Assembly (NCBI RefSeq): GCF_907164905.1
Contig: NZ_CAJRAF010000001.1
Coordinates: 841,001-905,000, forward strand
Direction: 5' to 3'
DNA: 64,000 nt
From: Dyadobacter sp. CECT 9275
GTDB taxonomy: Bacteria > Bacteroidota > Bacteroidia > Cytophagales > Spirosomataceae
The notes under the pieces: generated by a model
Seen by the model: the letters and a program-made list of their open reading frames with translations, nothing else
Database searches by the model: none
Told to the model about the DNA's origin: nothing
Shown here: piece after piece, positions 51,714 to 53,763 of the stretch
Layout: every line of letters begins with the position of its first letter
Position numbering within the stretch: position 1 is the stretch's first letter
Program-made: the position numbers and the translations under genes

Positions 51714-52136
51714 ATGAAATCGGCAACCAAAAAATTATCAACGGAGATCGCAGAAACCCTTACCGGGAAAATTGATAATGTTATCTCAGGTTCAAAAAAA
51801 ATTAAGAAATCAATAGAGAAGGCTGCTGAAAAACTGGCGAAAAAGGTTGCGAAGTTTGAAAAGGACGAACTGAAAAGAAAAGCCAAAGAAGCAAAAAAGT
51901 CGGAAAAAAAAGGAAAAGAAAAGGCTGGTAATAAGCAGAAAGCAGATAAGAAAAAGGTGAAGAAAACGGGTCAGATCGCGGATATCGTGGCTACAGTTAC
52001 CGCAAAAGTACCAGTTGAGCGTCCAAAGACTGTCCCAAAACCTGCACCGGCCCCTGTAAAAACACCAAGGACCACTAAAAGTAAAGTTGTTCCCCCGGCA
52101 CCGGTGGCGGTGATTACCGAAACGGAGTCTAACTAA
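51714..52136 (+). CDS. Lysine-rich histone-H1-like protein
   Basis: A 140-residue, strongly basic protein. Residues 1-65 look helical and Lys/Ala/Glu-rich (EKAAEKLAKKVAKFEKDELKRK); the centre is an almost uninterrupted run of Lys, Glu and Ala, and the tail (about 95-135) has Pro/Lys/Ala repeats (VPKPAPAPVKTP) like the tail of eukaryotic histone H1 and of bacterial H1-like and AlgP-like proteins. Nucleic-acid binding or a cell-envelope role are both possible; no domain proves either. There is no signal peptide. It is flanked by a terminator and the IS110 element. Confidence 0.75.
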   Translation: MKSATKKLSTEIAETLTGKIDNVISGSKKIKKSIEKAAEKLAKKVAKFEKDELKRKAKEAKKSEKKGKEKAGNKQKADKKKVKKTGQIADIVATVTAKVPVERPKTVPKPAPAPVKTPRTTKSKVVPPAPVAVITETESN

Positions 52137-52164: not shown

Positions 52165-52204
52165 GAGAGCCTGACCCCGGGGAGGATTAGGCTCTCTTTT
52201 TTTT
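52165..52204 (+). terminator. Terminator after the lysine-rich gene
   Basis: GAGAGCCT (52165-52172) and AGGCTCTC (52189-52196) form an 8-bp stem around a GC-rich loop, followed by eight T. Confidence 0.88.
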
Positions 52205-52232
52205 CTGAAAGTCTCTTCTGAACCCGAATACC

Positions 52233-52385
52233 CACAGCAATCCCAAGATCGCAGATCGATCTAAGCGATTTTCCTCTTAGAGAAAAATTTTTTCTACGTG
52301 CTCTATGGCAACAGCTGTGGGTGCTTAGCGTCTGTTATCAGTTTTGTTAACGGGGTATAGTCCACCAAAAAAAGCCTCGACCTTT
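52233..52385 (-). ncRNA. Candidate IS110 guide (bridge/seek) RNA region
   Basis: The non-coding segment downstream of the transposase folds well: ACCCACAGC (52230-52238) with GCTGTGGGT (52314-52322), CTAAGC (52261-52266) with GCTTAG (52323-52328) and CTAAG with CTTAG (52261-52280). IS110-family elements encode a structured RNA in one non-coding end that guides insertion; in the IS1111 group it lies 3' of the gene, as here. The opposite end has only about 94 bases. RNA identity is inference. Confidence 0.3.
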
Positions 52386-53609
52386 CTATTGGGACGCTAA
52401 TATTTTCAACTTTCTCACCCGGTTTTCCAACCGTTGGATTTCAGCTTTCCTTCTTTCGATCAGGATTTCAGCTTTCAGGGTTGGTTCCTTGTAAGGTAGT
52501 TTATCCCGAAGGATATGGTATGCAGCTGTTAGTATCTGATGGGCGATAGCCATTGCCGCCTTTTTCTTTCCTCGCCTCTGCGCCAGTTTGTGGTACTTGA
52601 ATGACAAGAAAGTGTTCAGGGTATGGCTGGCAGCCCAGGAAGCTTCGATCAATGTGGTTTTCAAATAGGTATTTCCGTGGGTTATCCTTGCTGACCTTAC
52701 TTTACCCGCACTCTCGTTATTTCTCGGGCAGACCCCGGCCCAGGAAGCCAGGTGTTTGTCAGAGAGAAACTGGGACATATCCAGACCGATTTCTGATACG
52801 ATACCAATAGCTGATTGCCTTGACACACCCGGGATGGTTTGTAGCAATGCGAGCTCGGCCTGCTTATCGGCCAGGCAAAGTTCTATCTGCTGGTCAAGCT
52901 GGCTGATGAGCTCGTCTAAGGCATGCATCGTCTGGATAATCAAGCTCAACATAAAACGGTGGCGTTCACAGAAGCGGCCGTAAAGTGCTTGCTGCAAAGC
53001 TTGCTTTTTGTTCACCAGCGAACCTTTGGCCTGGTTTGATAACACAACAGGATCGGTAACACCGGCCAATAACAAATCTATAATCCCCTGCCCGGTTTTG
53101 GAAAACACATCGCTGACCACGCTGCCGAGCTTAATGTTGGCATCCTCTAAGATATTTTGTAAGCGATTCTTTTCCCTGCTGCGCTCATTGACCAGCTTTT
53201 TACGGTGTCGCAGCAATGTTCTTAGCTCTCGCACCCAGCTTTCGGGGACAAAACTATGCCGGAGAAGACCACTCAAAAGTAGTTTAGCGATCCATTCAGA
53301 ATCCTTTTTATCGGTTTTATGGCCGGGAACATTCTTGATATGACGGGCATTAACCAAAATAATCTCAAAGCTGCCTTCCAAAACATAATATACAGGCCGC
53401 CAGTAAACGCCGGTACTCTCCATAGCAATATGGGTAATCTGGTGGTCCTCAAGCCATTGCAACAACTCTTCCAGATCTTTGGTGAACGTGGCGAAGGTCC
53501 GGGTTTCTTCCTTGATTCCAGTTCCTTTGATCGAAGCAACTACTGTATCTTTGTGTACGTCCAGGCCACAACCTCGGGCTATGAGCTGGGGGAATTCTAC
53601 TACTGCCAT
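52386..53609 (-). CDS. IS110-family transposase (DEDD recombinase)
   Basis: A 407-residue transposase. The N-terminal RuvC-like DEDD domain is visible: GLDVHKDTVVASIKG (first Asp), AMESTGVYWRPVYY (Glu), and KTDKKDSEWIAKLLL (Asp pair). The C-terminal transposase_20 domain has LLQTIPGVSRQSAIGIVSEIG and the ASWAGVCPRNNESAGKVRSARI segment with the serine used in recombination. There is a coiled linker between them and a charged C-terminal coil. The gene is complete, without frameshift, so the element may be active. Confidence 0.95.
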   Translation of the reverse strand: MAVVEFPQLIARGCGLDVHKDTVVASIKGTGIKEETRTFATFTKDLEELLQWLEDHQITHIAMESTGVYWRPVYYVLEGSFEIILVNARHIKNVPGHKTDKKDSEWIAKLLLSGLLRHSFVPESWVRELRTLLRHRKKLVNERSREKNRLQNILEDANIKLGSVVSDVFSKTGQGIIDLLLAGVTDPVVLSNQAKGSLVNKKQALQQALYGRFCERHRFMLSLIIQTMHALDELISQLDQQIELCLADKQAELALLQTIPGVSRQSAIGIVSEIGLDMSQFLSDKHLASWAGVCPRNNESAGKVRSARITHGNTYLKTTLIEASWAASHTLNTFLSFKYHKLAQRRGKKKAAMAIAHQILTAAYHILRDKLPYKEPTLKAEILIERRKAEIQRLENRVRKLKILASQ

Positions 53610-53763
53610 GTCGTTTGATAGGTTGGTCTCTATTTAAACGACTTTCATGCGCGTGGGTGAATTCCCCAATTCATAATTGTTTTGTTTTATCTGACCGAAT
53701 ACCGTTACCACTACCTGGAAAATACGTATAAGGGGTGTTGATCACACACTAACTCAGACGTAT

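Follow-up and report, generated by a model that had tools for sequence, protein, structure and literature searches.

RNA-guided target choice has been published for IS110 and IS1111 elements, and in IS1111 elements the guide RNA is encoded 3', downstream of the transposase gene (tnp) (PMC11187229, PMC11208160). In the parts of the published account drawn on here, the IS1111 elements with a seekRNA (ISEc11, ISKpn4, ISPst6 and ISPa11) combine a DEDD recombinase with a guide RNA downstream of tnp, insert in a fixed orientation at a specific site that is often palindromic, and have attC, REP or the ISEc11 site as targets (PMC11187229). The other close reference is IS621, whose recombinase uses a bridge RNA and whose core dinucleotide is CT (PMC11208160, PMC11208158). 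Outside the family, group IIC introns insert after intrinsic terminator motifs (PMC4424553, where Robart 2007 is cited); these are retroelements with a ribozyme, unrelated in enzyme and mechanism to the element described below.

Here, we describe an IS110-type element of Dyadobacter sp. CECT 9275, found in a stretch of 64,000 nucleotides that was analysed as a whole and that we call the window. The sequences of the element and its relatives present an intact tnp, recent copies, a covarying loop, guides that match their junctions and an association with terminators. We consider it likely that this is a mobile IS110-family element with an IS1111-like layout, whose 3' guide RNA sends insertion into the T-tract of intrinsic terminators. 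A first-pass annotation of the window had proposed that the 3' non-coding end of an IS110-family element encodes a structured guide RNA, and covariation and guide-to-DNA matching now bear this out at the level of sequence. It had also seen a novelty in the 3' location of the RNA, which the guide RNAs already published downstream of tnp in IS1111 elements take away (PMC11187229, PMC11208160). Within the literature searched, it is the terminator target and the natural retargeting among relatives that look new. No terminator targeting by the IS110 family was found in the titles and abstract openings of the open-access papers listed.

Comparison with described elements

The transposase (recombinase) gene lies at 52386-53609 on the reverse strand and encodes 407 aa. 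It had been annotated as an intact DEDD transposase gene, rightly so: the ORF is uninterrupted and both IS110 Pfam domains are matched (DEDD_Tnp_IS110, E=3.2e-32; Transposase_20, E=2.1e-21). The protein has the DEDD RuvC-like N-terminal domain and the Transposase_20 C-terminal domain with a nucleophilic serine that mark the IS110 family in its broad sense. D17, E64, D100, D103 and S300 are invariant in 8/8 aligned sequences, its own counted, and as read off the alignment to PDB 8wt6 they correspond to the catalytic set of IS621, which is matched at E=2.1e-20 by a profile built from eight such transposases.

As in IS1111 elements, a long non-coding region lies downstream of tnp, and by its sequence this end is predicted to encode an RNA matching target and donor, as is characteristic of IS110 elements. 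The IS1111 guide order, in which a complement of the top strand comes before a match to the bottom strand (PMC11187229), is found here too, with U7 preceding AACAAAA, given the guide assignment made below. Insertion in a single orientation at a specific site, often a palindromic one, is likewise common to both. Other IS1111 features differ. The sub-terminal inverted repeats of 11-13 bp, placed 7 and 3 bp from the ends (PMC11187229), are absent; by eye, there is only an 8-bp inverted repeat, roughly 5 bp from one end and 32 bp from the other (TGAAAGTC at 52206-52213 with GACTTTCA at 53640-53647), and relatives have a similar one. The published transposases have 330-350 aa and the motif GL-P----S(T)G (PMC11187229), whereas ours has 407 aa and GVCPRNNESAG, with SAG in place of S(T)G. 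The targets differ too, being attC, REP or the ISEc11 site there (PMC11187229) and, by our prediction, a terminator T-tract here. Because the long sub-terminal repeats, the protein length and the motif were each tested and each depart from IS1111, the element is not a strict IS1111 member. On its sequence, we place it in the IS110 family broadly and call it IS1111-like in layout and guide order.

The element resembles IS621 in its catalytic residues and in having a predicted core dinucleotide (PMC11208160, PMC11208158), in a target loop ordered stem-guide-stem-loop-guide, and in a matching base beside the core that recalls the handshake guide (PMC11208158). Unlike in IS621, the RNA is at the 3' end, the guide order is reversed, the protein is longer, and the predicted core is AA rather than CT (PMC11208160, PMC11208158, in the parts drawn on here).

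The element, its ends and its copies

With both copies of the predicted TT core (AA on the tnp strand) included, the element spans 52199-53681 on the reverse strand, its unique part being 52201-53679 (1479 bp). These limits come from a comparison of the three copies in the same genome and six further Dyadobacter insertions, with A-run arithmetic weighed against stem symmetry by eye. The crossover point inside the T-run is not one that sequence can fix, and the boundaries should be taken as good to within the T-run.

The three copies of the host genome (L001, L002 and L003) begin to agree at the T-run (52197-52204) and continue to do so rightwards through CTGAAAGTC; towards the other end, they are alike through GTTTTGTT (53679-53686) and divergent beyond. 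This contradicts, on both sides, the first-pass placement of the junctions at a 9-bp direct repeat, CCGAATACC, which occurs at 52224 and 53695: both junctions of the three-copy comparison lie about 24 bp further left. Since the copies already agree from 52197-52204 on, the left repeat (52224-52232) is internal to the element, and since they part after GTTTTGTT, its partner (53695-53703) is host flank of the window copy. The window contains 264 pairs of identical 9-mers 1200-1800 bp apart, so a 9-bp bracket is cheap by itself. Among nine distinct Dyadobacter insertions (the three in the host genome, L005, L034 and four in genome G334), the left side shows a T-run of 7-9 and the right side GTTTTGTT in 9/9.

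The host genome (7.2 Mb) has three full copies in all, and the closest named relatives with the element are Dyadobacter. One of its two other copies is identical to the window copy across 1493 bp and the other shows 99.7% identity across 1497 bp, and G334, of the same genus, has four copies with equal scores; on account of these copies, the element has probably been mobile recently.

Several side observations concern the relatives. A left-end block, CACC(A/C)AC..CATGAAAGTCG at window 53640-53679, is alike in the left ends of L036-L042, L046 and L048; relatives with this block have TGAAAGTC inverted at the right end, again at unequal distances, and CACCAACAG of the block reappears, as GCACCAACAGUUG, in the RNA of many relatives. 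Some of L222 (=L040), L223 (=L041), L046 and L048 have a transposase frame that is split or interrupted by an in-frame stop, so decayed copies exist among the relatives. The usual right end is missing from L243 and L245 (genome G1325), which have their downstream sequence in common and are perhaps carried by another repeat. The tandem head-to-tail copies L246, L235 and L238 (genome G1262) keep the junction AACTTTCAG-AAAAA-CATTCATGATAC, and the left guide of that lineage, GUGAAAAAAAC, is similar to the lineage's own right end, as though it had retargeted itself. Relatives were found in 79 plasmid records, each at <60% identity; of 28 viral-contig loci listed, none was counted as a member of the element.

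Structure of the guide RNA

An alignment was made of 18 of the 20 non-coding ends (L040 and L054 were left out). Its consensus has two short helices around two single-stranded segments, which in the window copy are a U-rich one (UUUUUUU) and AACAAAAC. The putative target-binding loop, at 52337-52382 on the reverse strand, is composed of an outer stem GGUCG/UGAU, a right target guide (RTG), an inner stem-loop UGGUGG..CCCCG and a left target guide (LTG). The right guide, RNA GGC-UUUUUUU at 52367-52376 (reverse strand), is complementary to the A-run/T-tract and the first bases after it, and the left guide, RNA AACAAAAC at 52341-52348 (reverse strand), matches AACAA, the core AA and the first base of the element.

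The first-pass annotation had looked to covariation among homologues, and to loops complementary to the flanking target, as the marks of such an RNA, and both are present. In the target-binding loop, 96.9% of cells are paired and 5/9 pairs have changed on both sides; of five measures of these compensatory changes, four were equalled by 0/500 shuffles and the fifth (further pair types) by 17/500. Slid controls were 30-56% paired, a comparison that favours the loop because its structure was predicted from the same alignment. The fold of the whole non-coding end has no advantage over shuffled sequences (z -0.62, with 49/200 of them as good); with a folding energy this ordinary, the case rests on covariation and guide matching, not on stability.

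The domain with the donor guide is enclosed by a helix of CTAAGC (52261-52266) with GCTTAG (52323-52328), spanning 52261-52328 on the reverse strand. Within it, the putative left donor guide, RNA AGAAAAAA at 52288-52295 (reverse strand), matches the right end of the element, CAGAAAAAA. Complementarity in this helix reaches shuffle p<=0.008 in 7/20 elements, all distant relatives, and is weak in Dyadobacter and Sphingobacterium (p=0.19 for the window copy); by position, we read CTAAGC/GCTTAG as a weak form of the helix that is clear in the distant relatives. This 6-bp stem, one of two singled out in the first-pass annotation, holds up in part, being kept in L005 and L034 and having one pair broken in L050. 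The other, a 9-bp stem of ACCCACAGC (52230) and GCTGTGGGT (52314), is present here but missing in L005, L034 and L050, elements of three other Dyadobacter lineages that are 85-87% identical, and it does not survive the comparison. A right donor guide was looked for and none was identified. The Rfam scan of the locus gave a single match at E=0.4, with 20.7 bits against a gathering score of 60, and a search of 98 genomes with a pattern of the donor-guide motif returned 0, the pattern being so strict that it missed a known copy in the centre genome.

Guides match their own junctions

In 15 elements, the eight left-guide bases and the left junction of the same element agree at 117/120 positions, against a permutation mean of 81.9 (p<=1e-5), and random re-pairing of left guides reached a maximum of 103 in 100,000 tries. 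In this permutation, the Dyadobacter copies together counted as one row; L039, L041 and L049 were excluded, the last of them being without the RNA end. A 19-row rerun, with L039, L041 and two new lineages added and with some rows sharing the same guide, gave 146.2/152 versus 107.5 (p<=1e-5), the poorest match being that of L041 (6/8). Taken separately, both subfamilies show the left-guide match: p=2e-4 for the A-run subfamily and, for the ATGAAA subfamily, 0.03 over 7 nt or 0.003 over 9 nt. A/T-rich guides may slip in register.

Past its U-run, the right guide matches the bases after the A-run of its own target better than those of re-paired targets (p=0.054, 0.015, 0.0097 and 0.032 for 1-4 nt), most clearly in L036 (4/4), while L048 and L052 do not fit. 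For the left donor guide, the summed longest match to the element's own right end is 88 in 11 elements, against a permutation mean of 66.9 (p=2e-5), a signal that comes mostly from differences among subfamilies; for the five elements of the ATGAAA group alone, p=0.017, and the match of L048 is poor.

Insertion sites and terminators

At the window copy, a hairpin (52165-52196) with a flush stem of 8 and the T-run at 52197-52204 make up a host intrinsic terminator (52165-52204, forward strand), in whose T-run the host T's, the core and the element T's are merged. The predicted target is hairpin-T6-GTT, the T-tract of an intrinsic terminator. A flush hairpin stem of >=5 adjoins 7/9 Dyadobacter insertions, against 18/123 intergenic A6+ runs (Fisher p=1.1e-4), 70/760 A6+ runs of all kinds (p=2.4e-6) and 2/13 intergenic AACA5+ sites (p=0.006), the background being 400 kb of the same genome with genes marked by a simple ORF mask. 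Folding energy is <= -5 kcal/mol in 8/9 insertions versus 62/236 A7+ runs; L060 has no hairpin by either the flush-stem or the folding measure.

A later test, made after the model had been formed, covered 93 genomes of the genus around Sphingobacterium alimentarium. Five genomes had copies, two of them new and with many copies. Of 15 loci listed, we kept the ten with an intact right end and not in tandem, thereby excluding L243 and L245 (differing right end) and L235, L238 and L246 (tandem). All ten adjoin a hairpin with a flush stem of 5-10, against 68/198 intergenic A6+ runs (p=3.8e-5) and 32/72 intergenic AA[TC]-A5+ sites (p=7e-4) in 400 kb of one copy-bearing genome. The contrast shrinks as the stem criterion is tightened: with a stem of 6 bp the count is 7/10 (p=0.008 and 0.054 against the same two backgrounds), and with 7 bp it is 6/10 (p=0.02 and 0.07). 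When a following G is also demanded beside similar left bases, p=0.011 in Sphingobacterium and 0.028 in Dyadobacter; the exact AAC-A5+-G background gives 8/13 (p=0.038) and 0/1 (p=0.3), respectively. Ten relatives examined earlier had a 5-bp flush stem in only 4/10 cases, and the Sphingobacterium copies among them in 1/3: L036, L037, L038 and L052 showed no hairpin, and the Sphingobacterium L040 and L041 had shorter stems only (4 and 3 by script), which brings the Sphingobacterium copies overall to 11/13.

Survivorship of intergenic insertions may explain part of this association. That any T-rich site is entered, with insertions into genes and operons subsequently lost, is a possibility that we take seriously without favouring it, and it need not exclude the guide model. 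It would accommodate L060 and the 6/10 earlier relatives that lack a 5-bp flush hairpin. In intergenic DNA, many T-tracts are terminators in any case (44-60% of guide-like motifs in Sphingobacterium), and unoccupied exact sites mostly are not: 42 AACA8 sites were found and 30 examined, of which 9 fold at <= -5 and only 7 at <= -7, so the guide match alone does not mark a terminator. Against survivorship, the enrichment holds in both genera when only intergenic runs are compared, weakly so once the runs must also have similar left bases and a G after them, and the hairpin is one-sided, standing on the tnp-downstream side in 17/19 insertions and on the other, scored more leniently, in 4/19. A T3 on the far side of the hairpin was found in 12/17 insertion hairpins versus 6/18 and 33/68 background hairpins, which is no more than suggestive of bidirectional terminators.

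Empty sites and the host side of the junction

Across the element from the hairpin, TTGTT at 53682-53686 (forward strand; AACAA on the tnp strand) is read as the left-target half, that is, as host DNA. This half is constant in 9/9 Dyadobacter insertions. For the window site, 29 orthologous loci were examined, ten of them with a detectable trmH - lysine-rich - lamin-tail order. At the spot, 8/10 of these syntenic loci read hairpin-T6/7-GTTT, the remaining two being a variant (L068) and a different hairpin (L088). The lysine-rich 140-aa gene itself (window 51714-52136) comes after a gene for a TrmH-like methyltransferase in each of the 29 other loci examined in the genus Dyadobacter, and matches to its protein cover chiefly the N-terminal part.

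The G334 site L059 was compared with 11 orthologous loci, of 48 genomes with a match; the 11 carry the hairpin, and their T-tracts are variable. By eye, the stem symmetry of several orthologues predicts GGCATTTTTGTTTGAT, whose GTTTGAT equals the right flank exactly, and hairpin-T5-GTTTGAT restores that symmetry. With the left A-run at 4 and the right one at 7, the donor junction then works out as CAG-A6-C. These numbers are consistent with strand exchange at AA and a left target AACAA, and with a native A-run of five at L059 and six at most other sites. The second site, L003, fits the same run numbers; its 29 orthologous loci offered no usable empty site, the intergenic sequence being too diverged, and no exact empty site of the same species was found.

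It could be argued that AACAAAAC at the left end is instead the element's donor end, the guide segment being a donor guide and the target only the A-run. We regard this as improbable, although AACAAAAC stands at 9/9 Dyadobacter left ends and the guide matches through the last base (the C or T after the core), which is element DNA. In eight copies of one Sphingobacterium genome (L243 and L245 included), the same guide, AAAT-AAAAC, faces AAAT, AAAT, TAAT, TAAT, AAAC, AAAT, AAAC and AAAT, followed by a constant AAAAC-GTT-CATGA. Because the segment varies under one guide while the element side is constant, the bases left of AAAAC are most probably host DNA, selected with some leeway. The T-run-GTTT of the orthologous empty sites also speaks against a donor end, less clearly at the L059-site loci, and the guide has the polarity expected of a left target guide, its matching last base resembling the handshake guide in the part of PMC11208158 drawn on here. 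Two earlier candidates, AACAAAAC as the element's own left end and the whole of T8-GTTTTGTT as target, were dropped after the empty-site and Sphingobacterium comparisons.

Natural retargeting

The right guide of L036 reads UGCG-UUUU, and the element is located at AAAA-CGCA, where there is no terminator; on this match of guide to site, we read L036 as a case of natural retargeting. A sister subfamily (L162, L053, L047, L045, L054 and L006), 47-54% identical in amino acids across the best segment, carries ATGAAA in the right junction and donor guide and, except in L006, in the left junction and left guide as well. L162 is inserted at what we take, from the peptide, to be a pheT-like start (ATGAAAATATCTTATAACTGG), and L053 is located at ATGAAAGTTTTC. 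Together, these observations suggest IS110 elements that target start codons.

Proposed mechanism and significance

In the mechanism that we propose, the 3' non-coding end would be transcribed with or after tnp to yield the guide (bridge or seek) RNA. Its right guide U7 and left guide AACAAAA would pair with the two target strands, the host strand reading hairpin-TTTTTT-GTT, and the donor loop AGAAAAAA would pair with the element's own right end. The recombinase would then exchange strands at the TT (AA) inside the T-tract, joining the circular element there. That the RNA is made and bound, that exchange occurs at AA, and the order of these events are inferred by analogy with the biochemistry of IS621 and IS1111. 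A circular intermediate whose ends abut is a feature of the IS110 family. The boundaries proposed here would imply a circle junction CAG-A(n)-CAATTATG, without AAC; in the Sphingobacterium genome G1262, the tandem right-end/left-end junction reads CAG-AAAAA-CATTCATGA, which tandem insertion could also produce. Given targeting of the T-tract, the element would land immediately after genes, its tnp-downstream end abutting the hairpin.

More tentatively, and on balance we doubt it, the recombinase might also read the hairpin, as a DNA hairpin, a paused transcription complex or an R-loop at the T-tract, so that terminators would be a structural safe harbour. The guide RNA being encoded at the hairpin side, the invaded and often bidirectional terminator would on this reading also end the guide RNA. 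An ordinary IS with no RNA guide and a 9-bp target duplication at CCGAATACC has practically no chance of being correct: the repeat exists and its spacing equals a normal element length, but the three copies refute both of its junctions and 264 comparable pairs in the window weaken it further.

If the proposed mechanism is true, an RNA-guided recombinase addressed to the terminator T-tract would be a safe-harbour strategy for IS110 elements of a kind otherwise known from group IIC introns. The examples of natural retargeting (L036, one Sphingobacterium lineage and the ATGAAA sister group) would help in learning the pairing rules of this IS110 branch, and insertion into terminators could change read-through between neighbouring genes.
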